DNA from: Adineta ricciae
Taxonomy: Eukaryota; Rotifera; Eurotatoria; Adinetida; Adinetidae
Assembly (NCBI GenBank): GCA_905250025.1
Contig: CAJNOJ010000135.1
Coordinates: forward strand, 62,001-126,000
Direction of reading: 5' to 3'
DNA length: 64,000 bases
In this document: one piece after another, positions 2,875 through 64,000 of the stretch
Numbering within the stretch: the stretch's first letter is position 1
Layout of the letters: each line of letters begins with the position of its first letter
Notes under the pieces: generated by a model
Told to the model about the DNA's origin: nothing
Database searches by the model: none
The model's input: only the letters and a program-made list of their open reading frames with translations
Made by a program: the position numbers and the translations under genes

Positions 2875-3846
2875 TTTATCAATATTTCTCTTCTCTTGTT
2901 TTGTCTTTTTTTTTGTTTTCATGCGTTTAACTATATCTGAACTATTTACCTTTATGAAGATCAAGAATATGAATTTGTAATGTTTATTACAATCGATACG
3001 ATTGAATTCTAACTTTGAAGAGCAAAGATTAAAGTACTTTAATATCATTTTATGGGAAATTCGATGAAGTTTCTAGTCTAACATTACTGCTGAAATAATC
3101 TTTTTTTTCTTAATGAATTAAAAGAGAAACTATTTGATTATGGTACTGTTAAAGACAGAACAAGCACAATTTCTTGTATTTCCTTGAGAAAAAAAAAGTT
3201 ATTGAATGTCGCATTCAAGGTGATTCATAATCAATCAATAAATACTTGTATTGTTTATCATGCATCTAATAACATCTGAACCACTTCTTCTATCTTTACT
3301 TATACATAAGAGAAGACAAAAGGAACAGAAATGAACTGATTTTCTCTGGTCATTGTGGTTTTCTCCTCTTCTTATCGCCACTAGAATCTATATTGATGTA
3401 TTTGTTCGTAATATTGGTAACACTCGTTATATATCAATGTGTATATTTAGCCGAGAAAAAAGGAAAGAAGGGGAAAAAAAAGGAAAAGAACGATAGAATA
3501 GTGTACATGCGATCCGAGAAATATCCTCAACCGAATAGTTACATACATCGACGGAACTCGTTTCTCGTGTGTTTGCTCGCGTACAAAAACATTCTCTGTT
3601 GTTGTTCGTCCAGCTCCATGCCTATACGATTGTCAGTAAAACAATGTTCTAACTGCTTCTACTTCTCTTTCTCCTCCTAATCCAACACTTGAAGATATGA
3701 CGACGAGAATATTACGGAAACGAATGAATCTTTCTCATATGTAATATATCGCCTAAGAAAGAATACGTAACAATCTCATGTCTAATAAGATCATTGTTCT
3801 CATTCAATCTTCTTTACCAAAAAGACCAAATTTTTCTTGATTAATC
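2875..3846. other. Intergenic region between IFT81 and the giant obscurin-like gene
   Basis: No coding frame here resembles a known protein. An AATAAA at 3237-3242, about 360 bp past the IFT81 stop, is a possible poly(A) signal. The purine-rich run near 3455-3490 encodes only low-complexity sequence by chance. The right half should contain the upstream promoter of the next gene, but no motif is decisive. Confidence 0.4.
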
Positions 3847-6800
3847 ATGGCTGATGATAATGATCTTACACGAAAACGATTACAATTATTATTCGACGAT
3901 GATACACGTAAGTTTTACATAAAAATTGTTTTGTTTATGTGTGTGTAAAACTAGCGACAAACAAATTTTTGAGTATTGTCTCCACACCAATTTCGATCGT
4001 CACAATTGAAGAAATTTGAAATACAGAATTGATTTCGACATCGATAGAGATTTTCATTTTGCGAACAAGAATGAACAGCTAGAAGATCAAAATGAAGATA
4101 GTCATCTATTTTTATCTTTTTGAGAAGTTTCTTACGGAAATTAATCGCAACATTCAGCACAAAACCACTTCCAACTTTCCCGTCGTTATTCGAAATGAAT
4201 TCGATTACTACAGTGTTTGTTGTATTTGTCTAAAGATAAATAATCAAAAGAAAAAGATTAACAAAATGAAATTACATTTACTCGTAAATAGTATTGTTGG
4301 ATTCCACATTGAGATGAGTCGGTTGGATTCATTAATGAAACATAATCTTTTTTACCATCATAAATCAATAGTTTATCACCACCACACGCGATATCCATTT
4401 TATCAACGACAATAATAATTCGTTGATTGACTGTTGCTGCTTTGATTGTTAATAAACAATCGAGATTCTCGCGATAGAAACCCGATGAAAGACTGAAAAA
4501 TGTTCCCGGAAGTGAATCACCATTGAGTTGAATTGTTTTTCCACAAATTCTCTCCATATCTAAAACGATCATTGGAGAAAAATTCAAATAATTCTATTCA
4601 TTTGTCTTACTTGGAGAACTGTAGAGAGAACCCGTACCACGAGCGTATACAAACGATGGAATTAGAAGAAAAACAAGAAATATAGTTCGACTGTTGACTA
4701 TGTCCATCGTTGAAAGAATGTTTTTCATTATTCATATCCAGTTTGAATGTTTATTTATATGTAGAAGATCTTTTTCTTCTTGTGTAATCGTTTGTGAAGA
4801 AACGATTGATACTTGAATGTTTTGAAAATCATTGAGGAAAGCGGATTGTATCAATGTTATCGACATTTTGTTTATATGTAAGTGTCTTATGTTGATATAA
4901 GCAGAGAAATACAATTCGAACCTGATTTGTTAACTAATAGCCAAGTAGAATCGTGTCCAAACAGAGAAGAACGACAAAAATCAGGAGTCAACTATGCAGA
5001 AACTTTGAGTTTTCACCCGTGAGTCATATGTACTGTAGGAACTGCAATAAGAAACTCAGTTGTTTTATGCTAATTCACCTGACTAAACGGTGTAAAACAA
5101 AATTTCACTCTCCTTTTGAATGTTCTTGTGTAAACGAACTCACTAATCGATACTAAAAGTGTACGAAGAATACATTTGAGTCATGAAAGAATCTATGGTA
5201 TAGACGAGACAGGAAAAAAGGCGCGTCGAGTTCTGAAATCTATCGGAAAGATATTTTCTCGTGAAAGTGTTTAATCAATGACATTTCCAGCGAGAAGATA
5301 TATCAGACTACAAAAATATAAAATCGACCTCGAAATAATCTTTATACTGTGTTACAAGGTCAATTTATTTTCCCATATTCAACTGTTTTTTCTCTCTCAT
5401 CTCACATATCGCATTGATTTTTGGCAGAAAAACTTCGACTTACGTCAGTTGGTAAAACTTCATCAATGTTAATGATTTCTTCGTGATCGATCGGATGAGA
5501 AGAAATTGTTGTTTGTTCGTAGAACAGGCAAAGTCGATATCATTAGATATAGGCAATCATGGATTTGCTGTTCTACTAATGCTCCTGGAGAGAAACCATC
5601 CGTATTCGCTCATGTACATATCATTCCTTTTCTCTCCTCGGTTTCCTTGTTGTCCTTACAGAAATATATACAAATTTCTTCGTCATCTATCGAATAATAC
5701 AAGCAGAACCGATAAAACCAAATCAATGAATATCTCTCGACAACACCAGTACGTTCCTCATCAACTACAGATAACTCGAACAAATGAGGAAGAAAACATA
5801 GAGAATCACATGGATTGTTGTCTTCATTTCTACGCATCAACAACACGATAATCAGTCTCGTTCCTTCTTTACATACGAACGTTCTTCAAACCACAAAAAA
5901 AGAGATTTCGCTCTTTTTTTTTAAACCTATTCTTTAATGGATTTCGATGAATTTTTAGCGGCTCCTGAAATTGTTCGTCGTCTTCTCTCTCAAGATGCAT
6001 TCGAGAACGAGACTGTAACGTTCTCATGTACTGTACAAAATGTTGGTAATGCAAATGAAGAGGAACCATTTACCATCACTTGGTTTTTTAATGATAAACA
6101 AATTCAATCGAACACCGACAGATATATCATCGATGAAAACTCCAAAACTGGCATTTGTTTATTAACAATTAAAAACATCGGAGCAGATGACGAAGGATCA
6201 TATCGATGTGTAGCCACAAACAAATTTGGATCATCAGTTACGACTGGATTTCTTGCTGTTCTAAGTAAAAACGATAAAGACATTTGTCAGAAGGAAAACG
6301 TTTGTTTGTTTTAGGAAGAAAACGATCTCAATCACCATCGCCTAGTCGTAATGCCAGTCCAAATCGTTCATTAAGTCCGTCAAGCAATCGTCTACGTGAT
6401 CGAAGTGTTTCCCCATTACGATATATTAATTTACCATATTCGAAATTAGCTCGAGTTACCGAAGAACTTGAAAATCTTATCAATCCATTAGCATCGACTG
6501 TTCATGAAGAAGAAACAGAAAATGTCGTTCCCGAAGATAAAGAAGCAACACCAATTAGCTCAATAATCGAAACTGAACAAATTGCAAATATTCCGTTAAA
6601 AGAACCATCTCCGACAAAAATCATCGAACCTGAACAATCAATTGTTCTTCCCATTGTTGAAGAGACTCAAATCGATTCAAGCAAAAAAGAAGTAAGTCAC
6701 ACAAATCTTCCTATCTTCACCAAGGTTTGAAAGCCACTCAACGGCTTCGTTAGATAGATTAGATGATATACAAATACTCCCATTAGATCCATTTTCGCAT

Positions 6801-9800: not shown

Positions 9801-12800
9801 AATTTTCTACAGTCGACGTTGTCTTCAGTAATTGAGTACGCGTGTTATCTGCTTTATTGTCTGTTTGACGAACGACGAAGAGCATCAAGAAAAAGAAGAA
9901 AAAAAAACGGTTTCAGTACATATATATCTGTCTTTAACTGTCTATATCATCTTCTTCTTCTCGGTCGATCAACTTTTTTTTTTCTTCTTTTTTCCTCTAT
10001 TCCGTTTACGGATAAGCAGATAACAAAAGGGTAAGTTTTCATCGCTTCTGTGGAAAGAATATCTTCTTTTTATTTGACTCGTTGATCATTTCAGTAGAGA
10101 ATTTTGTGAAGTTCATTGAGAACGAGAATCAGCATCAAGATAAACACATTAGATGTTTCACAGAGTGACACAAAATGCGTAGTACGTGTGTTGTTGAGTA
10201 TCTTCTTTCATTCGAGTATTTTTACTTCCCAGTACTGACAGAAGATATTGACAGGTAATTGGAAGGAATTTCTTTCTTCAGATGAAAAATAACATTCCGT
10301 TTTATAGAGAAAAATCAGTCGAAATACATAATGAGACAGCTGTTGTCCTTCGAGATATCCACAAAGATTAATGAGAAATGCTGAACATTTTTCGAGTTGA
10401 GAAACGATTTTCTCGAATTGATGACATCTGGTTATTTCATGGGCAGAAACGACACTTTCGTCCTCGCAAAGGTTACCTAAGTGCATAATGGACTGTTGAT
10501 AGAAATCGATTGTTTATTTTACTTGATAATATGCAAGATTTTTACAATATTGAAAATAGAAAGACTTTTTTTCCGTTCGCGGAAACGTGAATATTGACAA
10601 TTGTTAGATAAACAACAAAATCCGAATCGTCTCATGTAAAAAGATACATCGAACAAGTAATTTTATATGACAAACATACTTGATATGAGATTTCTTTCAT
10701 AGACCCACATTGCAAGAAAAGCAATTGTCCATATCGATCACGGTGAAATGATTTCATTGACTTATTTCTCGTGCTCAATAGATTGATTAGGATAAACAAC
10801 TTACGTAAAAGATTTCTATCAATCGAAAATCGTTAGGATAGTTTAGTTATTCAAGGTAAAAGTTTACAATTAATTATTTCATGTAAGGGGAGATAGCAGC
10901 AAGATCTTAAGTTTTATGTTGTGAGCGTGATAATTGTCTCGATATCTAAAATAGAGATGTTTAGGATTGTTTAGTTGTATTAATTGATTTAAGAATGATG
11001 AATGACATTTTGACTTCTTCATTTTTCTTCAACATCAATCAAAAATTCTTTTGCATGAAACAGTTTTTCGGTACATCTCGAGAGTCTATCAGTACATTCC
11101 TCCGCCCCCATCCAATCCATTTACTTAATAACTTTTGAAATGGAAGTAAAAACTTCAACGCAGTTTAATTTTCGTGAGTTGTCAGAAAAGTATCAATTCC
11201 CTCATACACCTCTCAAAGTAAATTTGAAGTTTCTACATATGAAAAACACGTATTGGATTGAGACAGAGGAATGTATCGTCAAGTTTTCCTTCGTCTGTGC
11301 CAATCCATATGATTTGATAGAGCTCAGAAGAATGCATCAATCAATGTCGATGTTATTGTCAGACAAGCACCGTTTTTGTTTCTCACATACAATTCTTATC
11401 CGTCATCTTATCCTAATCGAGTCCAAATGTATCTTCCGACAACGATCTAGCGATATCTATCGATCGTCTATAAACAGAATCTTCTTTAAAAATCTTTTGC
11501 TTCTCTTTTTAGTTGTTCCTAGCAAACGAACATATACGAAAAAGTCCGGTGTAGTGGCCAACAGTATCGACAAACGTTACAATCCGACAAATCAAGAAGA
11601 TCAAGATTCATCCTCAAGTAGTGATGATTTAAAAACAATGACAGAGGTTTGTTATTCACAAAGACTTCGTTTTCATTGAGAAATATCATCCGATCGATAA
11701 ACATCAACTCGCGTTGACTCGGACACAGTTAACGAGAATATTTCCTCATTCTGTCATACTAGTAGTGCTTATTTAGAATGAAAAGAAAAACTATAGAAGG
11801 AAATCAAAGATAACAACAGTTAAAAGAATATCTCTAGTTGACAATTAAGTAGGTGTTGATGGATTTGATACGAAGTCACCAAGGACAGTCTCCGCCTACA
11901 TCGGGAAAAACATGCGTCAAATTTGGAACGTCGCATTTTTTGTTTTACTTCTAGGAAGCTGAAGTTTATTTTGCAAATTCGGATTATGTTCCTACACGTC
12001 CAGATGGGATTTCACTTGCCGAAAATCAACTTGTCGATGTGCTTGATTCACATGATCCCGAACAATATCTTGTTCGTACTCGAGCACGTAAAGATGAACG
12101 GCCAAAAATCGGTTGGGTGGATGCATGTTTTCTCGAGAAGAAGTCAACTAACATAGGACAAGTATGTTCATATCTTGCATTTTCCTTTTCTCTACTTACG
12201 TAGATCATTATGGACATTGTCGTTGTCGTTGCTGCTGCTGCTACTGATTTCTTCATGTTCTCGCGAAAATCGGTTATTCATCGTATGAGAAGAGTTCTTT
12301 CATTCGTCGATATTTAGCAGACAATCTATTCATATGTGTGTGTATAAGTGATATGGTACGTGCGCGTAAGAAAAATAATGGATCAATAGTCTGTTGTTGA
12401 TGTGTGTTTCATCACGTATTTATCTCTTTTTTCCTCCTTCGATTCGATGATAAACAACAAGTGGAAAACGACAGAACAGAAATCGAGAAGGAAACATGAC
12501 ATTTTCTTCAGGCGTTTACCAAAACGAATAAAAGAAAGTTTTTCTTTTTTCCTCCCATCGGTTTTGATTGTACATGATAGATGAATACCGAACCTGATCT
12601 CAGTCTCTTTCTCTCTTGATATCGAGAAACAACGGATAAAGAAAGCTGGGAAAAGCATCATATTAGTATTAATAGGAAGCAGAGAAAAAAGAAAAACGAG
12701 CAACGAGACAAGCGATGATGTGACAAAGATGTTCGGATGAAACGATGCGCCTGCTGCTGTTGTTGTTGATGATGATGTTGTTAGTCCTATACCTGATATA

Positions 12801-54800: not shown

Positions 54801-57800
54801 GAAATGGGATAAAGAATCTCCGTATGAAGAAGAAACTGTTCAAGCAACATTCACATTAAGTCGCTTACCAGATAAACCAATTCAATGGTACAAAGGTAAA
54901 ATCGCTCTTCCAACTGAATCCACATCAAAATATAAATATGAACAAATGGATTGCACATTTACATTAACAATTCCTTCGACTGAGTTGAAAGATGCAGATA
55001 CATATTCAGTTAAACTTCCTGATGAAACACAATCATCAGCTCGTTTAAAAGTTCTGGAAACACCTGTGAAAGTGTTAGTTCCATTGACACTCCAACCAGC
55101 TGAACCAGTTCTTGGAAGTGAATTTACTCTATCGATAACATTGAGTCGAGATGTGAAGAACAACGCCAAATGGTTGAAGACTGGGAAAGATCTTTCACTG
55201 AAACGCGACTCGAGAATTTCATTCAAACAAGAACCGGACGATGAACACCAAGGTTTTCGATATTTAATCACTATTCGAGATGCTAAACCTGAAGATGAAG
55301 GCGCCTATCGATTCGAAGTTGAAGCCAATCAAATCAGCGAATCGAAAACTGTCAAATTACTCGAACCGAAGATTCTCATTGTTAAGTGCGACGAAATCCT
55401 CACTGGAAAAGTTGGCTCACCCGTCACATTCACATGCGAATTGAATCTTCCACAAGGTCATGTCACTTGGTATCGCGAAGGTATCAAATTAACATCATCG
55501 GACTCGACACCATTGAAATCAACAGGATTAACAGTTAAAAACAATGAAAATATTCGAACGTTGACCATCAATTCATTGAAAAAGGATGACTTTGGTTCGT
55601 ATACAGTGAAGACCAAAGATGACAAACGGGAAATTCAATTGAAACAACAAACGGATGATGATGGATTGAAAGTTCTCGAACATCCGGGAAAACTACTCGA
55701 TCTAGATCAAAATGATCAATTACAACTTTCAATTGTCACGAACAAAAAATGTCCAATCGAATTTTCAAAAGATGGAAAAGTCTTGAAAACAAGTGAAACA
55801 TTTGATAAAGATAAATCTCGATATACAGTGACATTTACAATCGACAAAGTCGATTTCAGCGATCAAGGAATTTACAAATCGATCTTACCAGGTACAAAGT
55901 ATGAATATCAAACTGAAGTTTTAGTTCACGATCCTTATCAACGACAAAAGGTCGATGTTGGTGAAGCGGAAGAACCATTGTTATTTGTGAAGAAATTAGA
56001 AGATCAGACAGTAAAGGAAGGTGTAGAAATTATTCTCGATTGTGAACTGAATCGAACGCCAAAATCTGCATCGATTTGGACACGAAATGGAAAAGAATTG
56101 ACGAGTAATGATCAAATCGAAATTATTCAAGATGACAAACATCTTCAATTGAAAATTCGAAAAGTTGCATCGGACGATCAAGCTGAATACACACTTAATG
56201 TTGAAAATCTCCGTGGACATGCTTTCATCGATGTGGTAAGTCACTTTTTCTTCTCAATTTCAGCAAAAACTTGCTTTTCTTTCATAGCTAACCGATCGCG
56301 TTCGATTTACTCAAAAACTCAATGACACCATCGTTAAAGTTGGTTCTCCGATCGTTCTTGAGTGTAAACTATCTATTTCTGATACACCAATTACATGGAA
56401 ACGAGATGGTCAACCTCTTGATAGCAAATATTCGACTGTTGATGGATATTTACATACACTTCGTCTACCATCTGCTGAACTCGATCACAGTGGAAAATAT
56501 TCTGCACACTACAATGATGAAATTGATACATCTTGCACCGTTTCTGTTCAAACTGAATTGGTCTTTGCCCGAGAATTACCTTCAGAATTAACTCTCAAAG
56601 CCGGTCAAAATCTTTTACTCGATGTGGAAACAACACGTCCGAATAAAACTGTTCAATGGTATCGCAACGGTCAACTGATTCCTCGGGTCGGTGATTCTCG
56701 TCATCGTCTGGCTGATGATAAATACGATCATTCAATCAAACTTTCCAAAGTCACCGAACAAGATGATCACGACATTCTCTACGAATGCGAATGCGATGGT
56801 GTGCGAACTCGATGTCGGGTCTATATTCAAAAAGAACCATTAGTTTTCTTCAAAGATCTGAAGGATACGAAATATGATTTAGACGATCGATTAGTATTTG
56901 TCGTCAAAATGAACAAACGCCCATCGAATGACGCGCGTTGGTTACACAACGGACAAGTTATTGAACCGTCGGATCGAATCAAAATCACCTACGACGAAAA
57001 AGAACATGAAGCGAAGTTAATTATTGAAAATTCCAATGAAGCTGACCAAGGAAAATATATGTACGATGCAATTGAAGCACGAACAAGTTGCACAGCTGAT
57101 TTGAAGGTGGTAAAAATGGAATTTGTTCAAGAATTGAGAAATCGATCGGTGAAACAAGATCAACCTGTCCAATTCGAATGCGAAGTGAATAAAATTCCCA
57201 CAAAGGTTGTTTGGCTGTTAAATGGACAAGTGATTGAACCAGACGGAACAAGATTTGAATGTGTCACATCACCCGGAAAGAAAAAATTTACATTGAAGAT
57301 CAAACAAACGTTGTTATCCGATGCTGGAGATGTCACCGTAAGAATTGATGATCAGATCGAATCAAATGCAACTTTAGATGTGAAAGGTTTGTGTGAATTT
57401 GAACGAAGATGATAAATGAAGTTATGATTATTTAGGAATTCCAATTGAATTTGTGAAAAGTCTGACGGGTGCTCGAGTTAATGAAAACGATACAGTTAAT
57501 TTCATTTGTGAATTAAATAAACCGAATATTCATGTCAAATGGTTTCACGAAGGAGAACCGATTGCACTTGGTATGGAATGGATGATTCAGTTTCGAAAAA
57601 GAACTTTCTTCATCTGATTTTATTTGAATTTAGATGATCATATTGATATTCAAGCGAAAGGAACTGTTCATTCATTGAAGATTTCCAAAGTTGCTTGGAA
57701 CGAAGGTGGAGAATACAAATGTGTTGCGGACGGTGGAGCGAAAACAAGTGCTACATTGATTGTCAAAAGTAAAAGGAAACTGTTTGCAACAGCATCATCA

Positions 57801-60800
57801 AATTTTCTCTTTTCTTTTAGCAACTCCAGTAACATTCACAAAACTTCTCGAAGAACGTATGTGCAATTTTGGCGACTCTGTTGAATTTACATGCGAAACA
57901 TCGAAACCATGTCGTGTCGAATGGTTTGTCAATGACAAACGTCTCACTCCTCAACAAGTTGATATCGAAACCATTGAGAATAAACACACACTTCGTCTTC
58001 CGAAAGTTAAATTAACCGACAAAGGTTGGTATAAATGTACCGTTCAAGACGAATTTACTGAAGCGAAATTAACGATCATCGGTAAGGAAAAACATATGGA
58101 AAAGTTTCTCGAAAGGAAAGATTTTTTTTGTGCTTTTAGACAAACCCGTCGAATTAGTCGAACCACTGACAGATGTTAATGTTCAAGAGAATGAAAATGC
58201 CACATTGATTTGTCAATTATCCAAACCAGATATGGATGTCGTTTGGTATCAAAATGACCGACGAATCTTTTTCACACCTCAATCGCGAATTCGTGCAAAA
58301 CAAGTCGATACGTTCTATAAATTGTTGTTAGATGATATTGAATACGATGATCAAGGAGTGTATGAAATGAGATGTGAAAATTTGAAAACATCGTGCCATT
58401 TGACAGTGAAGAAATTGGAAACTACGTTTCTTGATCATTTGAGAAATTTGAACGTACAAGAAGGAGTAAGAAACGTGAAATTCATTCCGTGAAATGTCAC
58501 GAATTCGTTTGGTTCGTTTCAGGAAACTGCGCGATTTCAATGTCGATTATCGAAATTGAGTTCCAATGTCCAATGGTTCAAAGATGGTGTTCGAATTTTA
58601 CCAAGTGATCGAATTGTTTATTCAATCAAAGGTGATCTTTTGTCATTGACTATTCACAATGCACAAATCGAAGACGAAGGAAACTATCGTTGTATGATCG
58701 ACAATCAACATACCGATGCAACATTAACTGTCGAACGTAAGTTTTACAACGTAGAAAGTTTCTTTCATTGAATTTCGTCTTTATTTAGCATTACCTGCCG
58801 TTTTTCTCAAATATTTACCGAAAACTTGGACGGTTTATGGTGATGAACCATTGGAATTGTCATGCCAAATCTCAAAACCGAATGTTCCAGTGATCTGGTC
58901 GAGAGATGGAATTCCAATAAGTGAAAAAGAACAAATGAGAAATGAAGGATTGAGATATAGTCTTTCGATTCCACATGGTGTTCGATCGGGTTTATACACA
59001 ATTCGAATCGATGATGTCAATGGACAAGAAAGTAGTTGTCAAGTGACAGTGGAGGATTTAGCAGAAAATGAACGAAAGAAACCAAAGATTATTCGTGGTC
59101 TGGAAGATTTGAATTTATCCGAAGGTGAAACATTGGAATTAAATTGTGAATTCCAAGGTGAAGATGTCGAAGCCACTTGGTTTCTAAATGGAATTATGCT
59201 TCGTACGAATGTTTTTACGACGCTCAATTTCAAAGCCAATGAATTGGCACAATTGCTGATGAAAGAAGTTTATCTTGAAGATGCTGGATTGTACAAATTA
59301 CGTTTGAAAAATAAATTTGGAGAAGTATCGACGTCGTGCACTGTGTATGTTCGTCTACGGGAACTTGGAACAGATCAACGAAAGATGAGCAGCGAAGATC
59401 TACCACCGAAGTGAGTCATTTGAGTGTTTGCTTGCGGTTTTATGCAATTTTTTGTAGATTTATTCAACCTATCTCGGATGTTTATGTTCATCACGGTCAA
59501 GAAGCGAATTTTCGTGCGATTATTACTGGACAGCCTACACCAAAAGTGACTTGGTATTGCAACTATAAGAAAATCGCCAATAATGAGAAATATCGTGTGA
59601 CACAAGAGAAAGATGAATATGTATTGGCGATTTTACAAGTCAATGAAAATGATGAATGTGAATACACATGTAAAGCAGAAAATCCTGTGGGAGAAAAGAC
59701 GTGTTCAGCGAATTTACATTTAATTGGACCATCGAAATCACAATCGTACGTTGAACTGTTGTTTTTCTCAGAAAGAAACGGACTTTTTTCTTTTGTAGAA
59801 CTGATGATATCGCACCGTCATTCATTCGTAAGCTTCGTAATTGCACAGTCATCGAAGGTCAACGTGCGAAATTCGATTGTTTTATCACTGGTCAACCGAA
59901 TCCAACGATTCGTTGGCTACATAATGGTTTAGCCTTAGATATCAATGAAAATCCCATGAAATATTCGTCACAAATTCAATCGAATGGAAAAGTTCTATTA
60001 ACAATTGAAGATTGTTCACAAGAAGATGCTGGTGAAATAACAATCATCGTTGAAAATCGTGCTGGATCAACACAATGTTCCGCAGAATTAACTGTCGAAC
60101 CTCATCATGAGTCCAGTCGATTAAAACGTCGTGTTAGTTTTGACGTTCCGGAATTGTCATCATCATCCGGCAAACAAGGAGCTTTACCATTACCACCATC
60201 AAGATTGTTATTAACGCCAAATTCGAAATCAAGCTTGAATTTGAGTTGGGAACATTCACCTTCGCATAGTCGAACACAGCCTTGTACTTACATTGTGGAA
60301 TTGAGAGATCCAAGAACGTATTCATGGACAACATATGTTTCAGCATTACCTGGTTTGTTTAAAGAGACTGCGATTTGGTTGATAGTTGTTTGTTCTTTGT
60401 AGATACGAGTTTGCAACTACGTGGTTTGAATTTGAATCATATTTATGCAGTTCGAGTGCGAGCAGAGAATGCGTTTGGTGTAAGTGATCCGTCGCAACCA
60501 GTTACAAGTCGACTTCTAAGTCGAAGTAAGGATTTTTGAATGAGAAGATTGAGATTTGTGATTGAACTAAATTTAGATGATCGAGGAAAAGAAGATGAAG
60601 AACCAATAAGTAAAACACGACGATTACCAACTTCCTCATTGGATGATTATGGTATATTCTTTACAGAAATGACTTGATTAGTATGCATTTCTCTTGATTT
60701 AGGAACTCGACCATCATTGCAAGTCGATGGACCTGATATTCAATACTTTCTCGAAGGACAAAATGTTCGAATCACCATGTTACTTGTTGGTTATCCAATT

Positions 60801-63800
60801 CCTGAGTTAACTTGGTATCATGATGTAAGTTTTCCCCTTCAAAATTCCGATTTCCTAATCATTTCTCATTGATTAAGGGCGAGAAAATCTCTTCATCCGA
60901 TCCTCGTATCAAATCATTCAATGATCATCGTGGTTATGCTTATCTTTCCATTGATTCTGCCTTAGCATCTGATGAAGGTACTTATGAAATCGTAGCGGAG
61001 AACAAATATGGCGTTGCTCGTCATACGGTCTATCTTTATCTTGCCGATCCGCCAATGTTTCTCGAACCATTACAAGACACTCGTTGTCGAACGCATGAAA
61101 CCTTCCGTTTGGAATGTAAAGTCGATGGAATTCCATATCCTGAAGTACGATTCTATAAAGATTGGCGGTTGTTAACTGATTCATATCGAACGCGCATAAG
61201 ACATATTGAACCGGATATTTGGCAATTGACAATTTACGGTGCAATCGAAAAAGATACTGGTCTCTACACTTGTACAGCAAAGAATATCGCTGGAGCGACT
61301 TTATCATCGGCAAATGTTAGTGTTGAAGACAATTTATTGAATATTCCACGACCGGATCTCGAAAGATCGATTGTAACATTCAAAAAGAAACGATTCGACG
61401 AAGATTATGATATTTTAGAAAGAATTGAACAGTAAGTCTAAGACGGGAAATAGATGGAATAGAATTGACAATATGATTTGTTTCAGTGGACCTATTTCGT
61501 CAGTTTATCGTGTCATCGAACGACGAACAGCAAAAGAACGTATAGCGAAAGTTGTACATAATCCGAAATATTTCGACTGGCTTCGAAGAGAAATGGAGAT
61601 CCTTTCGCATCTATATGATTCAAATATTCCCCGATTACATGACGCTTATGAGACGGATAAGATGCTTGCAATCGTTTTCGACAAGTAAGTTCAAATCGTG
61701 TGAAAACACCGCGAAAACGCAGATTTTCTTCTGATTTAGTATCCAAGGAGACGATCTACTCGAACATCTTCTCAACCGTCGAACCTACACCGAACATGAC
61801 GCATCATTAATCATTCGTAATCTCGTTGAAACATTGAAACATTTGCATTCCAGAAATATCGTTCATCTCGATATCAAAGTAAACCTATTTTTCTGCACGA
61901 ATTTCGTTAAATAATTCTCTCCTTTCTATTTCAGCCTGATAACATCTATATTGATGATCGATATGATCCAATTCGCGTACAATTATTAGGTTTTACTAAC
62001 GCCCGTCATTTGACAGGAACATCGAATGTGTATTCTGATTACGGCGCACCGGAATATATCGCACCGGAAATCATTCATCGTTATCCAGTATCTCTCACAA
62101 CGGACATGTGGAACATGTATGTGATTTGTCATTTAGTATTTACTTATGTTGAATTGTCATTTTTAGTGGTATTTTAACGTATTTGTTGTTGGGTGGTCAA
62201 ACGCCGTTTATTGGTGCAAATGATTTTGATACTTTACAAAATATTCGTCAAGGAAGATGGACATTTGGTGATCGATTTACGAATATCTCACCAGATGCGA
62301 AGGACTTTATCACACGTTTGTTGAATCCTGATCAACAGAATCGTTTAACAGCGGAACAAGCATTAAATCATCCATGGTTGAAATATGCACTGCAACAAAT
62401 TGATAAAGTTCCAATTTCATCTGATCGACTACAAGGATCGTACTCTCGACAACTTTTTGATGTGAGTTTATTTTAAACTTTGTTCTTTTTACAAGATTTG
62501 GTGATTTTAGCGTGAATATCGTCGTACTTCTTCGCGACCTTTACCAACAATTAGCGAAATTGCTTCAATGCGAGGTGATTTGGGTGGTTATGGCGATGAT
62601 AGAGAACGAACTTACGATGATCGTCATATTCGAACACGGGCACGACGTACATCCCGAGGTAAATTGAAAACTTTATCTTACACTAATTCAATTTATTTGA
62701 TTGTAGATATTTCATTTGATGATCATGATCACGAAATTCATCGTCGTCCATCGATAATCGAAGATGAAAATCTCACACCTGGCTCGTACCTTCTTCCAAT
62801 CTATGATGTCGATTTTGCCATTCGTATGCGTGGTTATCGTCGATCAAGTTATCAAAATCGTTACACATCGTCCGAATATCTCTACGCACCACCTGTTGCT
62901 CCTCCTGAACGTCTTCTCGCACGTGATACAGTCAAAGAACGTCTTCATGTCGATGCGCAAGGACGACGAGTACGGGGTTGTTCAGCCGTACCACATAGTG
63001 GCTGTTCAGCATCGCGAGAATTAAGTGTTCAACCAGGCGGTACACGAGGAATTTCAGCAACACCGTCCTTCTATGCGCCGTATGGACGAACAAGTGAATC
63101 ACCTGCACATGGCTATGGATTGTCGGCGAGATACGGAAGTACATCGCGGTTATCACCATTTCCAGGTGGTACGGCACGTGCGCCAAGTATTCCAAGAGAA
63201 TTTCAAGCACAGGGCTTTACAGAAGATCAACGGGCATCACGAGGCGAAGGTAAATCTAGTAGAAAAGAAGAAAATTGGTTTAGATGAAAGAGTTGCTTTG
63301 TAGGTTTTGCTGCGGTGTTCAAAGAAAAACTAGTTGATACATCATTTTTGGTTGGTGGCACAGTTATTTTACGATGTAAAGCACAAGGCAATCCATTTCC
63401 ACGTATTTTTTGGTATCGAAATGATGAATTCATCATCGAAGACGATCATATTCAATTTGCTCAAGGCGAAGATGGTCTTTGTACATTAACAATCACCCAC
63501 TGTAAAGCAAGTGACATCGGTATTTACCGTTGCGTGGCACGAAATCTGTATGGTGATGCATCATGCAAAGCAAGATTATTAATCGGAGGTAAAGAGCAAT
63601 TTTTTCTTCTAATTCGATCATTGTTAACGAATCGTTTTCATTTTAAAGATGTTCCTGATCGACCACAACGTCCAATTGTAATTGATGTTTCATCTAGTCA
63701 AGCTTATCTTGTTTGGAGTTCACCATTGTATGACGGTAATAACGACATCAATGGTTTCCGTGTTGATTACAAAGCACGTGAAGATCTTAAATGGACACAA

Positions 63801-64000
63801 TCAACATTTACCATTGAAGAATCTGCATTGATCCATGGATTGAAACCATCGACGTTTTATCGTTTTCGTGTGTCTTGTATTAATCGTGTGGGTATCTCAG
63901 CGTACTCCTGGGCATCGGAAGAAACTCGAACACTGGATGAAAATGCGGAAAATAATCGATTATTAACGAAAATTGATCGACAATCAGCTTATCGTTTACT
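3847..64000 (+). CDS. unc-89-like: Giant UNC-89/obscurin-like muscle protein (3' end beyond window)
   Basis: This is one gene running through almost the whole window in about 85 exons with consistent splice phases. The family members (nematode UNC-89, vertebrate obscurin) are sarcomere M-line scaffolds and Rho-GEFs. The order SH3, DH, PH, long Ig array, Ig-Ig-FN3-Ig-Ig-kinase-linker-Ig-FN3 is the UNC-89 order and is not found in titin or twitchin. Exon 1 (3847-3907, MADDNDLTRKRLQL) joins in phase to the Ig exon at 5959. N-terminal exons (3847-12161) give 714 codons, and those from 13088 to the edge about 14,600 codons. That makes it nearly twice the family's usual size. The excess comes from a PEVT/PEVK-like region (27602-33690, 36817-38310) and recently amplified Ig pairs. 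The join between the exon ending at 12161 (phase 0) and the RhoGEF exon at 14058 (needs phase 2) must pass through the 13088-13647 exon, for example by internal acceptors ending at 13459 or 13549. Alternatively the two halves are separate transcripts. The second kinase is expected to the right of the window. Confidence 0.88.
3951..4707 (-). CDS. Secreted CUB-LDLa domain protein nested in intron 1
   Basis: This is a four-exon minus-strand gene: 4707-4611, 4559-4282, 4229-4136, 4078-3951. It gives 198 aa with all phases consistent. It starts with a signal peptide (MDIVNSRTIFLVFLLIPSFVYA). A CUB domain follows: it opens CGKTIQLNGDSLPG, has LDCLLTIKA and CGGDKLLIYDG in the middle, and ends VGSGFVLNVAINF. 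A short LDL-receptor class A module closes the protein, with six Cys in order within SCSQNENLYRCRNQFC and NCDDRNWCGDNT. The Ca-binding acidic residues at the end of a classical LDLa (DGSDE) are reduced to GDNT, so calcium binding may be weak. The protein is probably extracellular and involved in adhesion or protein binding; no specific role can be assigned. The gene lies wholly inside the first intron of the obscurin-like gene, antisense to it, with its stop only 44 bp from that gene's exon 1 donor. Confidence 0.8.
4708..5958. other. Rest of intron 1 of the giant gene
   Basis: This is upstream sequence of the nested CUB gene and the 3' part of the obscurin-like intron 1. Short open frames at 4953-5156, 5278-5472 and 5483-5851 resemble nothing I know and show no splice-consistent partners. 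An in-frame ATG at 5937 runs directly into the first Ig exon (MDFDEFLAAPEIV), so this stretch may also contain a second promoter. Confidence 0.4.
5959..6264 (+). other. Ig domain 1 of the giant protein
   Basis: This I-set immunoglobulin domain is encoded by one exon. It runs from PAPEIVRRLLSQDAF through the B-strand Cys (TVTFSCTVQ), the core Trp (ITWFFNDKQI) and DDEGSYRCVATNKFG with the F-strand Cys. Both disulfide cysteines and the Asp-x-Gly-x-Tyr-x-Cys signature are intact. The acceptor is at 5957-5958. Confidence 0.85.
6315..6691 (+). other. Ser/Pro-Arg-rich then Glu-rich linker
   Basis: This exon encodes a disordered segment. It begins RRKRSQSPSPSRNASPNRSL, with many Ser-Pro steps flanked by Arg, and then becomes acidic (Glu/Ile/Pro-rich). 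Ser-Pro clusters are common phosphorylation targets, and nematode UNC-89 has a comparable KSP segment elsewhere. The exon ends SSKKE in phase 0. Confidence 0.7.
6692..7501. other. Intron, about 0.8 kb, no gene seen
   Basis: The intron runs from donor GTAAGT at 6692 to acceptor TTGTTAG ending at 7501. I see no transposon, RNA gene or splice-consistent open frame in it. Confidence 0.5.
7502..8291 (+). other. Ig domains 2 and 3
   Basis: Exons 7502-7592, 7640-7895, 7944-8038 and 8091-8291 encode two I-set domains, each split by a short intron after the B strand. Ig2 keeps the B-strand Cys (LDVSCSIAGVPEP) but has Tyr at the F-strand Cys position (GQYTIYAENSLG). Ig3 has the reverse: Ala instead of the first Cys (QIFAKVIGNPAP) and a normal GEYSCIATNMMG. 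Neither can form the canonical disulfide, which is common in intracellular muscle Ig domains. Confidence 0.8.
8342..8564 (+). other. Short acidic linker exons
   Basis: Exons 8342-8418 and 8472-8564 encode an acidic linker (EPESTGSEIEERSANVSD, then MEDFPESIASQLIDKHV). They join in phase to the SH3 exon at 8621. No domain is recognised. Confidence 0.6.
8621..8917 (+). other. SH3-like domain 1
   Basis: Exons 8621-8767 and 8821-8917 give a beta-barrel pattern typical of SH3: ARDVYMNKGDMVEIVDIDKQ, then DKWLVRNKK, then ICYVPREYLEMVP, where YVPREYLE corresponds to the family FPSNYVE strand. The intron between them uses a weak donor (GTTCGA) after Asn-Gln. This SH3 is additional to the one immediately upstream of the RhoGEF domain; UNC-89 and obscurin have a single SH3. 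The exon ends in phase 1 and joins perfectly to the exon at 11513. Confidence 0.65.
8918..11512. other. Large 2.6 kb intron
   Basis: This is the largest intron of the giant gene that contains no recognisable second gene. It holds simple sequence, including (TA)n near 9173-9186, (GTT)n near 9445-9464 and CTT/TTC-rich tracts near 9945-10000. A 92-codon minus-strand frame (10208-10486) and a plus-strand frame entering exon 11513 from ATG 11140 are not supported by any family similarity. Its position ahead of the SH3-RhoGEF module makes regulatory content plausible, but nothing specific is seen. Confidence 0.5.
11513..12161 (+). other. Ser/Asp linker and SH3 domain 2 (RhoGEF-proximal)
   Basis: Exon 11513-11646 is a linker (VPSKRTYTKKSG ... 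DSSSSSDDLKTMTE). Exon 11955-12161 encodes an SH3 domain reading EAEVYFANSDYVPTRPDGIS, LAENQLVDVLDSHDPEQYLV, RTRARKDERPKIGWVDACFL. It closely follows the pattern of the UNC-89 SH3 (Asp-Tyr near the start, VEVLD strand, WLVRT, GWV..FxE). It should bind proline-rich partners and sit against the DH domain. The exon ends in phase 0. The 308-bp intron between the two exons shows nothing else. Confidence 0.8.
12162..13087. promoter_or_regulatory. Intron with a possible internal promoter
   Basis: This non-coding stretch precedes an in-frame ATG (13088) that opens a 187-codon exon spliced to the RhoGEF domain. The sequence just upstream is T-rich without a good 3' splice site, so a transcription start in this interval for a shorter GEF-first isoform is plausible. 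Trinucleotide runs (GCT near 12231-12242; GTT/GAT near 12757-12780) are present. No core promoter motif is certain. Long minus-strand frames here (12383-12877) look like chance. Confidence 0.35.
13088..13647 (+). other. Alternative first exon: Arg/Gln/His-rich N-terminus before RhoGEF
   Basis: The exon starts MSSPTWYPTDLSSLLFDSDR and continues as a low-complexity Arg/Ser/Tyr/Gln segment. It includes a Cys-rich patch (CEYCPCINC) and a Gln run (QQQRQQQQPYQPHH). It ends DEAVIKR plus two bases, which join exactly to the exon at 14058 to give a continuous KRRYAFADILESE. No acceptor with a good pyrimidine tract precedes the ATG, so it is probably a first exon. For transcripts arriving from the SH3 exon (phase 0), in-frame internal acceptors end at 13459 (CCTTATCAG) and 13549 (TTCATTACAG). 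Confidence 0.65.
13648..14057. other. Intron, 410 bp, no gene seen
   Basis: The donor GTAATT is at 13648 and the acceptor ..CCTTTAG ends at 14057. Nothing recognisable lies between. Confidence 0.5.
14058..14720 (+). other. DH (RhoGEF) domain
   Basis: Exons 14058-14228, 14296-14569 and the start of 14622-14960 encode the Dbl-homology domain. Conserved region 1 is ILESERSYVADLQRIIEIYL. CR2 lies around IEDIFAFHKVLFLNDL. CR3 contains LNNLLNRPIQRLEKYKTILQ, the signature helix that contacts the GTPase (Arg-Pro-x-Gln-Arg-x-x-x-Tyr). The family catalyses GDP/GTP exchange on Rho-type GTPases; the UNC-89 GEF acts on RHO-1 and the obscurin GEF on RhoA/TC10. The key helix is intact, so activity is likely, though substrate choice cannot be read from sequence. 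Confidence 0.9.
14740..15260 (+). other. PH domain following DH
   Basis: Exons to 15166 and from 15219 encode a pleckstrin-homology fold: a LGELKRHDVVLIKTT strand, RERFLYLYRQKVVVCRRKRV (outer-strand basic residues), EITFIQENF, KKFEITFNDHDRVTFFARN, and the C-terminal helix MSLVRSLRDNLKAL. It packs on the DH domain in the family and modulates exchange or membrane association. The acidic/Ser linker exons after it (15219-15544) lead to Ig4. Confidence 0.8.
16855..16883 (+). repeat. Left terminal inverted repeat of the mariner element
   Basis: These 29 bp are identical to the reverse complement of 17747-17775. They are preceded by the TA target-site copy at 16853-16854. Confidence 0.92.
17071..17706 (+). 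pseudogene. Broken mariner transposase
   Basis: Block 1 (17071-17310) reads like the N-terminal helix-turn-helix half of mariner transposases, including LGFTATQIHRELI, VSFSTVVYWIGQF and EDGPRSGRS. It ends in a stop at 17311. The region that should carry the first catalytic Asp is deleted: only about 90 bp separate the blocks where several hundred are expected. Block 2 (17398-17706) has KLHHDNSR with the second Asp (codon 17410) and HRPYSPDLAP followed by the third Asp (codon 17515). That leaves 34 residues between them, the mariner D34D spacing. TGA stops flank the third Asp. It cannot make an active enzyme. Confidence 0.88.
17747..17775 (-). repeat. Right terminal inverted repeat of the mariner element
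   Basis: This is the reverse complement of 16855-16883 over 29 bp without mismatch. It is followed by the TA at 17776-17777. The host acceptor site lies only 24 bp further on (17800-17801). Confidence 0.92.
19145..19990 (+). other. Ser/Pro/Arg-rich linker
   Basis: Exon 19089-19788 and the start of 19842-20439 encode about 270 disordered residues between Ig10 and Ig11. It is dense in Ser-Pro and Thr-Pro steps (RSSRTPELGGYRSSMSPTT, RPSTSPSPQRE, SSKSPSPSPTRK, FSPSRSPARQS). The composition suggests multisite proline-directed phosphorylation. There is no folded domain. It resembles the 6315-6691 linker in style but not in alignable sequence. Confidence 0.75.
20014..27551 (+). other. Ig domains 11 to 34 (24-domain array)
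   Basis: By hand count 24 consecutive I-set domains lie in exons 19842-20439, 20494-21822, 21872-23507, 23565-24331, 24380-24722, 24776-26140, 26199-26865 and 26921-27551. The first ten (to about 22950) have full Cys pairs and xxFIxPL starts. From about 22970 the array becomes a dimeric repeat. One type has no cysteines (for example VREGDTVTLSVEGLQ ... IHLLKNGRPI). The second type starts LPQDTF/LPKDVF, keeps only the B-strand Cys and has Glu-Leu in place of the F-strand Cys (GVYELKNANTI). Each pair is about 200 residues. The same two-type pattern recurs in the exons 33891-42865, so the two zones share ancestry. Confidence 0.82.
29220..30290 (+). repeat. 324-bp (108-aa) tandem repeat, block A
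   Basis: Equivalent points (the Val/Ile-Thr-Val-Glu-Gln-Pro-Lys motif) fall at 29305, 29629, 29953 and 30259, with spacings of 324, 324 and 306 bp. Each unit runs from ETKPETA..TTTT through QPKQPTATIEE, VIERRH.VPSTVE, EKPTEKVTTTVEEQRIT and APVKTIEQ. Long stretches are identical at nucleotide level between units, indicating recent duplication or gene conversion. The last unit has lost 18 bp. Confidence 0.85.
31130..32540 (+). repeat. 324-bp (108-aa) tandem repeat, block B
   Basis: The same unit as block A recurs, with equivalent points at 31177, 31501, 31822, 32146 and 32470 (spacings 324, 321, 324, 324). About 900 bp of diverged, related sequence separates the blocks, so the array was amplified in two places or its middle has decayed. 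All spacings are multiples of three. Confidence 0.85.
33691..33890. other. 200-bp intron with palindromes
   Basis: This intron follows the 5.6-kb exon. Its 5' half is visibly richer in G and C than neighbouring introns. It carries a perfect 12-bp palindrome at 33747-33758 (TAGTTCGAACTA) and an 8-bp palindrome (GTAGCTAC, 33798-33805) framed by GCCTG/CAGGC arms (33794-33798 and 33810-33814). A normal pyrimidine-containing acceptor ends at 33890. Confidence 0.6.
33891..36038 (+). other. Ig-pair exons, copies 1-3
   Basis: Exons 33891-34541, 34615-35304 and 35367-36038 each encode one Ig pair plus an acidic Thr/Glu tail. The first Ig lacks cysteines (VEETSTVTLTIEKPQ, VVLLKNGEELKPSDH, DEGDYTVEVKG). 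The second opens KPVIRQEMQLPKTRFNEKET, keeps one Cys (LTIVCQFDA) and ends GVYTLKSDHLILDTPTITV. Each exon is a multiple of three with phase-0 borders, so each is a cassette that can be duplicated or skipped whole. Confidence 0.85.
36140..36412 (+). other. Two small acidic linker exons
   Basis: Exons 36140-36256 (117 nt) and 36317-36412 (96 nt) encode Thr/Glu/Val-rich linker (LPETTVTKTEETSTIE; PIETKVVEEKVTTEE). Both are phase 0-0 cassettes like the PEVK mini-exons of titin. Confidence 0.65.
36413..36816. other. Intron, 404 bp, no gene seen
   Basis: The donor GTAATT is at 36413 and the acceptor ..CTTTTAG ends at 36816. The intron is AT-rich, with no transposon or RNA feature recognised. Confidence 0.5.
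36817..38310 (+). repeat. Lys-Pro-Val-Glu/Gln (PEVK-like) short-repeat exon
   Basis: One 498-codon exon, phase 0-0, consists mostly of units of 13 residues (KPVEEKPVEQEQP, 39 bp) mixed with 8-residue units (KPVEEEQP, 24 bp) from about 36880 to 38215. Only Lys, Pro, Val, Glu, Gln and a few Ile/Ala/Met/Leu/Gly/Thr occur. Units differ mainly by synonymous or Gln/Glu changes. The composition is close to the titin PEVK and implies a flexible polyampholyte chain. A tail (EEEIIEIIEEEQPKEVKQSE) leaves the repeat. The short period makes copy-number variation between alleles likely. Confidence 0.88.
38370..42865 (+). other. Ig-pair exons, copies 4-7, linkers and a three-Ig exon
   Basis: Ig-pair exons are 38544-39173, 39448-40143, 40214-40870 and 40969-41628. 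They are interleaved with linker exons 38370-38492, 39268-39387 and 41718-41756 (the last only 39 nt). Exon 41810-42865 carries three Ig domains (IVKVPEGDTITIRIPG; VIEGDSVNLTIERPKD; HLPKEVFDQGETLTIVCEFD). Domain types match 33891-36038. Exons 39448-40143 and 40969-41628 are nearly identical over more than 400 bp, including silent sites. Every exon length is divisible by three. Confidence 0.85.
43067..46950 (+). repeat. Seven-copy 555-bp Ig-pair super-repeat
   Basis: Within one 5.7-kb exon (42917-48638) seven tandem units of about 555 bp (185 aa) each encode two Ig domains. The first starts PKFVKDLKANKTTLTEGEQL and the second PKFVKNLTINKKQFDMGETL. Unit starts are near 43069, 43622, 44179, 44734, 45289, 45844 and 46399. 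The first Ig has one Cys (ILECEL) and ends DEVDSKPVSITVNAD. The second has FECTLNKPFD, a core Trp and EDHTGTYSVRVK, with no F-strand Cys. Units 3 to 6 are the most alike at DNA level; units 1 and 7 are the most diverged, as expected for unequal crossing-over. No introns interrupt the array. Confidence 0.9.
46951..50429 (+). other. Ig domains after the super-repeat
   Basis: Exons 42917-48638 (3' part), 48690-49352, 49400-49870, 49920-50231 and 50286-50429 encode about eleven more diverged Ig domains. They start, for example, LTFVKDLKAVKTTLDENETL, IKFVKPLHALKNPLNEDETL, LRFTKELTPTEVNATEG and AAFRKLLPNELTTNQDED. Most have the B-strand Cys. Full Cys pairs return from about 49440 (GAYRCVLPNN, GKYTCQDRDT). 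Introns here are phase 1. The last exon stops inside an Ig domain (VRIIKGLPETLLVPQG), which resumes at 51697 after the receptor-bearing intron. Confidence 0.8.
50454..51422 (-). CDS. Seven-transmembrane receptor (rhodopsin-type GPCR), single exon, nested in an intron
   Basis: The ORF is 322 codons, intronless. The N-terminus MNVTLASSERISTNPF has an Asn-x-Thr glycosylation site. Seven hydrophobic segments follow, roughly at residues 22-45, 54-78, 90-115, 133-158, 170-198, 225-250 and 262-285. TM3 ends SLERTFFIFY, where Glu-Arg corresponds to the (D/E)RY motif. TM7 carries LHAYPILIYAL in the NPxxY position, with His-Ala replacing the usual Asn. The C-tail is short and basic-to-polar. It is probably a chemosensory or peptide receptor of an animal lineage-expanded class; no ligand can be named. 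The gene lies antisense inside the 1267-bp intron 50430-51696 of the giant gene. Its stop codon is only 25 bp from the host exon, so the two mature or precursor transcripts must overlap. Confidence 0.8.
   Translation of the reverse strand: MNVTLASSERISTNPFRFEQHILIWLSAIIDIVFSTLSLFRYFRYKYQRTHLTYVYHFSLGFSILLSVISTPLHTLTEYYSLWISEQQRRLLCNFNLIAFFVASAGIGYSLAYASLERTFFIFYSQNIRLSWFRQFMPFLIIFSSCSIIITLFVLLAKCSLDASLCIICYFSSLTFQFIWFSLQFLLPFAFMLLAISFLIYRIEVHTNRIQSSITRHRSKKKFHRILIHLNIYTLYYVFALCPTNLYLFLRLPLKVQNQIIDILLVNYIFISLHAYPILIYALTKVKQPIRMKYVQQEQKPAPYIIVTHPSMQMDEYERTRL
51697..59410 (+). other. Distal Ig array (about 26 domains)
   Basis: Exons 51697-52521, 52580-56235 (3.7 kb, about 12 Ig), 56288-57386, 57436-57570, 57634-57768, 57821-58081, 58140-58465, 58523-58736 and 58789-59410 encode this array. 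Domain starts include SKITQPLKDVTLQENQNL, ADFTKKLQNVETEEFQTV, LTIVKPLTADKDKPMEG, LLFVKKLEDQTVKEGVE, VRFTQKLNDTIVKVG, VTFTKLLEERMCNFGDS and PKIIRGLEDLNLSEGETL. Most distal domains (from about 55980) have canonical Cys pairs; many in the 53-55.9 kb exon lack one or both. Introns are mainly phase 1 at or inside Ig modules. Confidence 0.8.
59458..60525 (+). other. Ig-Ig-FN3 module
   Basis: Exons 59458-59745, 59799-60352 and 60403-60525 encode two I-set domains (FIQPISDVYVHHGQEANFRA; APSFIRKLRNCTVIEGQRAK) and a fibronectin type III domain (about 60180-60525). The FN3 has LNLSWEHSPSHS, YIVELRDP, LNLNHIYAVRVRAENAFGVS. Between Ig and FN3 lies a short basic Ser-rich stretch (SSRLKRRVSFDVPELSSSSG) containing a KRRVSF phosphorylation-like site. 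In UNC-89 and obscurin an Ig/FN3 block likewise precedes the first kinase. Confidence 0.85.
60703..61331 (+). other. Ig-Ig immediately before the kinase
   Basis: Exons 60703-60824 and 60878-61431 encode two Ig domains (LQVDGPDIQYFLEGQNVRIT ... YEIVAENKYGVARHTVYLYL; PMFLEPLQDTRCRTHETF ... GLYTCTAKNIAGATLSSANV). The linker exon 60577-60651 connects them to the FN3. The second Ig has both cysteines; the first lacks them. Confidence 0.82.
61396..62395 (+). other. Protein kinase domain 1 (probable pseudokinase)
   Basis: Exons 60878-61431 (end), 61487-61684, 61740-61878, 61935-62116 and 62167-62461 encode a kinase fold of the titin/MLCK-like group. The Gly-rich loop is lost (ERIEHGPISSVYRV, one Gly). 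The VAIK Lys is kept (RIAKVV, codon 61548) with a helix-C Glu (REMEILSHL). The HRD loop is HLDIKPDN (catalytic Asp codon 61870). The DFG motif is LGF (61986-61994), so the Mg-binding Asp is absent. APE is present (APEYIAPEII), as is the C-lobe (TYLLLGGQTPFIGAND; LTAEQALNHPWLKYAL). Without the Gly loop and DFG Asp it is unlikely to transfer phosphate. The first kinase of UNC-89 is also regarded as inactive, so a docking role is likely. Confidence 0.85.
62511..63249 (+). other. Interkinase linker, Arg/Ser/Gly-rich
   Basis: Exons 62511-62658 and 62707-63249 encode about 230 disordered residues after the kinase. First comes an Arg/Asp-rich stretch (REYRRTSSRPLPTISEIASM; RERTYDDRHIRTRARRTSR). A Tyr/Pro/Gly/Ser-rich stretch follows (RGCSAVPHSGCSASRELS; GRTSESPAHGYGLSARYGST). 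The segment right after the C-lobe (SSDRLQGSYSRQLFDREYRR) occupies the place of the regulatory tail that blocks titin-like kinases. The rest corresponds to the long interkinase region of UNC-89, reported to bind phosphatase and LIM partners. Confidence 0.7.
63304..63588 (+). other. Ig domain between kinase 1 and FN3
   Basis: This is a canonical I-set domain on one exon: FAAVFKEKLVDTSFLVGGTV, ILRCKAQGNPFPRIFWYRND and IGIYRCVARNLYGDASCKAR. Both cysteines and the core Trp are present. It is positioned as in the UNC-89/obscurin C-terminus, just ahead of an FN3 and the second kinase. Confidence 0.88.
63649..64000 (+). other. FN3 domain and linker running off the window
   Basis: The exon starts DVPDRPQRPIVIDVSSSQAY and continues LVWSSPLYDGNNDINGFRVD and GLKPSTFYRFRVSCINRVGI, a complete fibronectin type III domain (to about 63930). 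The following residues (RTLDENAENNRLLTKIDRQS) are linker. The exon is open to the window edge; the second kinase domain should begin shortly beyond. Confidence 0.88.

Follow-up and report, generated by a model that had tools for sequence, protein, structure and literature searches.

The stretch of Adineta ricciae DNA analysed here (hereafter the window) comprises 64,000 nt of contig CAJNOJ010000135.1, positions 62001-126000, within an assembly of 130.46 Mb and 1,033 contigs (GCA_905250025.1). It carries a giant gene that, by its domain order, is UNC-89/obscurin. An IFT81 gene lies at the window start, upstream of the obscurin gene, where one exon was recognised by Pfam and the remainder by eye, and a solute-carrier-like gene, recognised by eye, follows downstream from 66.8 kb. 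In our splice-aware reading, the obscurin gene runs from an ATG at position 5937 to a stop at 65140 in window coordinates, which is 1,140 bases beyond the window end, and the resulting model consists of 81 exons with 45,822 nt that encode 15,273 residues and a protein of 1,738.7 kDa. A first-pass annotation of the same DNA had the feature begin at 3847. Coding begins near 5937 instead, and a coding start at 3847 was rejected: the interval from 3847 to 5937 received a single 57-nt exon (4158-4214), which is unsupported and appeared in a model that had fused neighbouring genes.

The model was shaped in part by its constraints. Since the gene finder disallows in-frame stops and both gene ends were fixed beforehand, the stop-free single chain is partly so by construction, and the presence of one gene is an assumption of the model once the ends are fixed. 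When the ends were left free, IFT81, the obscurin gene and the solute carrier downstream were merged into one model, a consequence of the low weight that the gene finder gave to start and stop signals. Several corrections were made by hand: two exons were added (the first RhoGEF exon and the first exon of the first kinase, PK1), the interkinase and last Ig exons were re-placed, one donor was picked to preserve the frame, and one false intron was taken out of the second kinase, PK2. The informative support for the reading comes from its mostly short, canonical introns and its long open exons; 66 of the 80 introns measure 120 nt or less, the median is 55.5 nt, and most are canonical and have good sites. 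Two donors, at 15089 in the PH part and at 60245, are not credible and mark model errors, with 84% and 77% of decoy donors, respectively, scoring equal or higher. Because some joints, such as these two, are still plainly wrong, the residue count is approximate. The modelled exon end at 60244, in the Fn3 domain, is probably too early, and the SH3 exon probably does not end at 12087, as modelled, 12161 being the better position; the linkage of this exon to its neighbours is weakly modelled. The features of the gene are collected in Table 1.

Table 1. Features of the rotifer obscurin gene in window coordinates.
Feature	Position	Strand	Evidence or remark
N-terminal exons: three Ig, S/P-rich linker, SH3-like half exon (8637-8767, under the Pfam cut-off)	5937..8767	+	
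SH3 exon	11955..12161	+	PF07653, 24.8 bits, cut-off 21.8; strong donor 12162
Open frame with ATG, no good acceptor before it	13088..13648	+	Possible alternative first exon
RhoGEF (DH) and PH	14058..15325	+	Pfam PF00621 83 bits, PF22697 30.6 bits (PH cut-off 27.7)
First Ig array, with S/T/P-rich insert at ~19.1-19.9 kb	15376..27551	+	
PEVT exon, 1,863 aa, ~108-residue repeat (324 nt)	28102..33690	+	No Pfam match
Three paired-Ig exons between the two putative spring regions	33891..36038	+	
PEVK-rich exon, 498 aa	36817..38310	+	
Four further paired-Ig exons (38544, 39448, 40214, 40969)	38544..41628	+	
Single exon, 20 Ig by iterated profile, among them a series of 185-residue paired-Ig repeats	42917..48638	+	
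C-terminal Ig array	48690..60192	+	
Fn3 split over two exons	60193..60525	+	Two partial matches (positions 2-40 and 48-83 of the 84-position profile), neither reaching the cut-off alone
Ig-Ig before PK1	60703..61431	+	
PK1 kinase domain	61487..62461	+	
Interkinase linker, ~230 aa	62511..63249	+	Disordered side of charge-hydropathy plot
Ig, Fn3, lead-in to PK2	63304..64000	+	PK2 continues to 65140, outside the window

Two introns of the gene contain other elements. The 1,267-nt intron at 50430-51696, which has excellent splice sites, encloses an intact open frame of 329 codons on the minus strand (50457-51443) that by eye resembles a seven-helix receptor; this frame matched no Pfam family, and no second copy of it was detected in the assembly at E 0.001. 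At 16824-17801 lies the decayed remnant of a mariner/Mos1-type transposase (HTH_48, 3.6e-7).

From its N terminus, the predicted protein consists of three Ig domains, SH3, RhoGEF-PH, an Ig array, the PEVT exon, paired-Ig exons, the PEVK-rich exon, a long Ig array and a C-terminal kinase block, for which Pfam gives the order Fn3-Ig-Ig-PK1-linker-Ig-Fn3-PK2. PK2 lies mostly beyond the window, at about 64.1-65.1 kb. Pfam recovered Ig, RhoGEF, PH, both kinases and Fn3, together with a modest SH3, and the PDB matches of the RhoGEF/PH region were Trio, Rho GEF 25, Dbs and Kalirin. It is from the C-terminal order and the SH3-RhoGEF-PH block, which forms part of an N-terminal order Ig-SH3-RhoGEF-PH, that we identify the gene as UNC-89/obscurin, and the framework proposed in the first-pass annotation is borne out by the Pfam domains and by this order. 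When the assembly was searched with a 112-aa RhoGEF query, only the window copy was found, while an 88-aa PK1 query found only the window copy and a kinase on another contig, C10. The Ig domains were counted with a profile seeded with five Igs of the window and iterated on the obscurin protein itself, which yielded 107 domains at E<0.05 and 0 in the reversed protein, in keeping with the roughly 107 counted before. In the exon at 42917-48638, the independent Pfam I-set model marked 16 stretches, compared to 20 by the iterated profile. Fn3 matches in the obscurin locus occurred only near the kinases, with 150 of 191 candidates scored in one search.

Both kinases look degenerate or inactive from their motifs. 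PK1 has kept HLDIKPDN and carries LGF at the position of DFG, whereas in PK2 the catalytic loop reads HLNINPSS and the DFG motif reads DFS, leaving PK2 without the catalytic Asp, Lys and Asn and the DFG expected in the invertebrate obscurin pattern. Pairwise searches of the PDB placed the obscurin chain 8ak2 fourth for PK1, at 2.1e-47 and behind three twitchin entries; for PK2, DAPK3 came first, and no chain named obscurin was present among the best 60 matches listed. The parts of PMC10129394 available to us describe PK1 of invertebrate obscurins as a pseudokinase and PK2 as probably active, and the mammalian obscurin kinases as active. In contrast to this published invertebrate pattern, the rotifer PK2 also lacks catalytic residues, and both kinases are probably pseudokinases serving as scaffolds. 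If neither kinase retains its catalytic residues, as it seems, scaffolding would be uncoupled from enzymatic activity in this tandem.

A single gene with a single transcript across the locus is likely from the gene reading, in which the model was forced into one gene. On both sides, the PEVT exon is bordered by strong splice sites that had not been used to train the site score. The donors there are equalled by 0.02% and 0.64% of decoy GTs, and for the acceptors the proportions among decoy AGs are 1.8% and 1.6%. Within the middle of the gene, the joint 36412/36817 is the weakest: its donor is equalled by 33.7% of decoys and its acceptor by 8.5%. The donor at 36413 is doubtful, with slightly better alternative in-frame donors, and an AATAAA or ATTAAA is present at 36724, within this joint. 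In addition, weak sites join the exons in the 8.8-14 kb interval, and the ATG at 13088, whose open frame sits just upstream of the RhoGEF, could begin a shorter form. These weak joints, the ATG, the polyadenylation-like motif and the constraint of the model to one gene would all fit a locus whose internal promoters and polyadenylation sites yield several shorter proteins, with ends near 36.5 kb, say, and starts at 13.1 kb or close to the kinases, so that the full chain of 15,000 residues is rare or absent. Such a mode of expression has a parallel in C. elegans, where unc-89, according to the portions of PMC12812942 consulted, has three promoters and gives rise to at least 16 polypeptides of 156-900 kDa. 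We nevertheless hold it to be rather unlikely here, given that the 66 introns of 120 nt or less leave little space for promoters or 3' ends and that the Ig modules flanking 36.4-36.8 kb are duplicates of one another, points that still allow short isoforms to exist alongside a long one.

The middle of the protein is set apart by its composition. The PEVT exon consists of 22% E, 21% T, 10% V, 9% I, 8% K and 7% P, has a net charge of -232 and contains 18 aromatic residues; with 46.4% P/E/V/K it is hence not PEVK by composition. The PEVK-rich exon comprises 28% E, 22% P, 17% Q, 14% K and 13% V, amounting to 76.5% P/E/V/K, and repeats with periods of 13 and 21 residues. Including their flanking linkers, the non-Ig stretches measure 1,997 residues (45.6% P/E/V/K, 20.5% T) and 674 residues (70.6% P/E/V/K), giving 2,671 in all, close to the approximately 2,500 codons of PEVT/PEVK-like sequence that had been estimated at first. 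Neither exon has a Pfam match at E 0.001. In a charge-hydropathy analysis with 51-residue windows, 91% of the windows in the PEVT exon and 100% of those in the PEVK-rich exon fell on the disordered side, although this is a blunt measure, since 39-55% of the windows in Ig blocks and 69% of those in the RhoGEF/PH region did so as well. A 216-aa piece of the PEVT region, modelled from the single sequence with AlphaFold, had a mean pLDDT of 39.1 and displayed low-confidence strands rather than plain coil. At 0.38 nm per residue, simple arithmetic gives a contour length of approximately 1,015 nm for the 2,671 residues. Read in antisense, the PEVT exon (28102-33690, minus strand) also contains open frames of 655 and 539 aa, probably as a by-product of codon make-up, and open length alone is therefore no proof of coding.

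This composition makes an elastic role of the middle plausible, and it is in this respect that the notion of a titin-like spring and obscurin signalling in one protein has to be qualified: the anatomy agrees with it, while the elasticity is a plausible reading of composition only. The force borne by the middle, its location and its elasticity are what we infer. Elasticity inside an obscurin is already known from C. elegans, where, in the sections of PMC10129394 at hand, the interkinase linker of UNC-89 responds to pulling as an entropic spring and is also a scaffold. That linker thus has a bearing on both sides of a further possibility, namely that the disordered middle of the rotifer protein is a phosphorylation and docking platform or a spacer, not a load-bearing spring. 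The scaffold function of the worm linker would favour a platform, as would the 444 Ser/Thr residues of the PEVT exon, 161 of which have an acidic residue three places on. Its spring-like behaviour argues in the other direction, and both the composition of the middle and the tandem Ig arrays that surround it fit a spring. We therefore regard a platform or spacer as a secondary possibility only, and the platform and spring roles are mutually compatible.

Other Ig-rich giants are encoded in the assembly, but at separate loci, with a twitchin-type locus on contig C10, a related one on C24, and Ig arrays on C469 and C37/C113. Locus C10 has a kinase fragment amid Ig and Fn3 domains whose best match among solved structures is twitchin (1.7e-51), and C24 is its relative at approximately 71% DNA identity. 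Loci paired at this level, like the short introns, would be in keeping with a bdelloid; a search for the bdelloid telomere repeat gave 38 overlapping matches, its control being a rotation of that repeat and hence no real contrast. On C469, a frame-by-frame count at E<0.01 gave 190 Ig matches across 60 kb, which the stricter criteria of the tree described below reduce to 147, and no Fn3 match was seen, with 150 of 191 candidates scored. C37 is a relative at approximately 72% identity, and C37/C113 were counted as giant Ig-array loci. The Ig count of C469 may be inflated, because the locus contains an 18-kb tandem copy of itself at 94% identity (3603-21731 and 21779-39940) with a 12-N gap at the joint, which is either a real duplication or an assembly artefact. 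Several hundred residues of a KKAEEDKKAAE-type repeat at C469:2725-5071 and 20142-23316 appear by eye to form a single alpha-helix or coiled-coil rod, not a PEVK spring; the low-complexity part of C469 is thus a charged repeat of KKAEE type, as opposed to PEVT in obscurin. On its architecture, not on a tree, C469 might be called kettin/Sallimus-like. The presence of the twitchin-type locus (C10 and the related C24) and of the Ig-array loci (C469, C37/C113) speaks against the earlier suggestion that the obscurin gene compensates for a missing titin, and replacement of a missing titin was accordingly rejected. Titin roles are probably filled by these separate twitchin-type and Ig-array genes.

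We then considered where the extra sequence came from. Copies within the gene differ from one another, with 80-96% identity between PEVT units and 71-89% between the paired-Ig repeats of exon 42917. Together with a window that contains no N, these differences make it very improbable that the locus is an assembly artefact in which repeats were over-expanded or two genes were joined by the assembler, an explanation for which the highly repetitive middle would be the natural setting. Estimates of dN/dS show purifying selection between the copies. The median was 0.19 for the paired-Ig exon copies (below 1 in 17/17 pairs with finite dS, of 21) and 0.07 for the repeats in exon 42917 (below 1 in 14/14 pairs with finite dS, of 21), many dS values in both comparisons being above 1 and near saturation. 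For the seven PEVT units, dN/dS was 0.36, with 20 of 21 pairs below 1, compared to 0.54 and 1.21 in the shifted frames. All 17 modelled exons between 27602 and 41810 are phase 0-0, as opposed to 2 of the 62 other internal exons, of which 24 have lengths that are multiples of 3; skipping or duplication of the middle exons is therefore possible without a break in frame.

The relationships among Ig domains were examined in a tree of obscurin and loci C469, C37, C24 and C10, for which rows with E<1e-3 and at least 50 profile positions were taken (105 of 107 for obscurin, 147 of 190 for C469, 40 of 55 for C37, 11 of 42 for C24 and 7 of 31 for C10) and which 309 of 310 domains entered; C20, C35, C173 and C113 were omitted, and nearest tips were read without branch supports. 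The nearest tip was another obscurin Ig for 77 of the 105 obscurin Igs. This held for all 49 Igs around the putative springs (aa 2891-10491, bounds set after viewing the list), some at distances of only 0.01-0.1. For the remaining 28 obscurin Igs, all of them outside aa 2891-10491, the nearest tip belongs to another locus and is at least 1.3 away. Consistently, the 216-aa PEVT piece gave 13 matches in the assembly, all 13 inside the PEVT exon and none elsewhere. Because the spring-flanking Igs are nearest to Igs of the same gene and the PEVT piece matches only its own exon, the middle region most likely expanded from within the gene. In this reading, the middle grew as frame-neutral exons were duplicated within the gene, with purifying selection acting on the copies.

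The same results bear on a hybrid in the stricter sense, as the first-pass annotation might be understood, in which titin-type Igs and a PEVK segment moved into obscurin and replaced a lost titin. The titin-like composition of the PEVK-rich exon (76.5% P/E/V/K) and the 28 of 105 Igs that have their nearest tip elsewhere could be cited for such a fusion, those Igs all being outside aa 2891-10491 and at distances of at least 1.3. The nearest tips of the 49 spring-flanking Igs and the search with the PEVT piece led us to reject a capture of titin modules, and, with twitchin-type and Ig-array genes at loci of their own, we consider a titin-obscurin fusion extremely unlikely.

In UNC-89 of C. elegans and Drosophila, SH3 precedes RhoGEF, and the C. 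elegans protein has a KSP-repeat region. In the part of PMC4413555 that we consulted, KSP refers to titin. According to the available portions of PMC12812942 and PMC10129394, the C. elegans and Drosophila proteins share with the rotifer protein a RhoGEF on the N-terminal side, followed by many Ig domains, Fn3/Ig, PK1, which is a pseudokinase, a disordered interkinase linker, Ig-Fn3 and PK2. Unlike them, the rotifer protein has 2,671 PEVT/PEVK-like residues in its middle and three Igs before SH3/RhoGEF. These three Igs differ from the ecdysozoan layout and slightly resemble the chordate one, Ig domains having been inserted ahead of the RhoGEF in chordates as described in the consulted parts of PMC12812942. 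Vertebrate OBSCN shares the RhoGEF, the Ig array, the two kinases and an Ig before the RhoGEF, and almost 70 domains are given for vertebrate obscurin in the sections of PMC3859903 seen. The same parts of PMC12812942 put obscurin at up to approximately 900 kDa in C. elegans and list isoforms of approximately 970 kDa in vertebrates. At about 1.74 MDa, the rotifer protein is thus roughly twice as large, which agrees with the initial estimate that known obscurins are about half its size. No PEVK-like region of vertebrate OBSCN is mentioned in the portions of the literature consulted for this comparison. Our literature search likewise found no titin-length spring in the middle of an obscurin, within the parts of the papers available, and no paper treating both obscurin and rotifers.

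Titin is laid out with A-band Ig-Fn3 super-repeats, and its PEVK motif is approximately 28 residues long. The obscurin locus differs in that it lacks such super-repeats and possesses a RhoGEF and tandem kinases, and its main repeat is the 108-residue PEVT unit, not the titin motif. It resembles vertebrate titin in a tandem Ig array with a putatively disordered, partly P/E/V/K-rich stretch of comparable length, the PEVK of human soleus titin reaching up to 2,174 residues in the consulted part of PMC3859903.

Overall, we favour, with a probability of about 0.6, a single UNC-89/obscurin ortholog that approximately doubled in size. The gain would stem from duplication of the gene's own paired-Ig modules and from the growth of two charged and probably disordered repeat regions, PEVT and PEVK-rich, in mid-protein. 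The protein would occupy the M-line, as other obscurins do, and its middle could behave as an entropic spring that links the RhoGEF part at the N terminus to the kinase part at the C terminus. The length of this spring might be tuned by exon skipping, because all 17 middle exons are phase 0-0, and the spring would add compliance to obscurin, not stand in for titin. More speculatively, and with much reserve, obscurin in this lineage might be an isoform-tunable elastic filament, a single chain of approximately 1.7 MDa in which 2,671 residues would provide an unfolded contour of approximately 1 micrometre, with a RhoGEF on one side and a double-pseudokinase scaffold on the other. Sarcomere stretch would then be sensed by obscurin alongside the twitchin-type and Ig-array giants but without depending on them.

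In the usual view, obscurin is the scaffold and titin is the spring. If the reading favoured here is true, a muscle spring would have arisen convergently, from obscurin's own sequence and alongside twitchin-type and Ig-array genes, which would open the question of what a spring within obscurin does.
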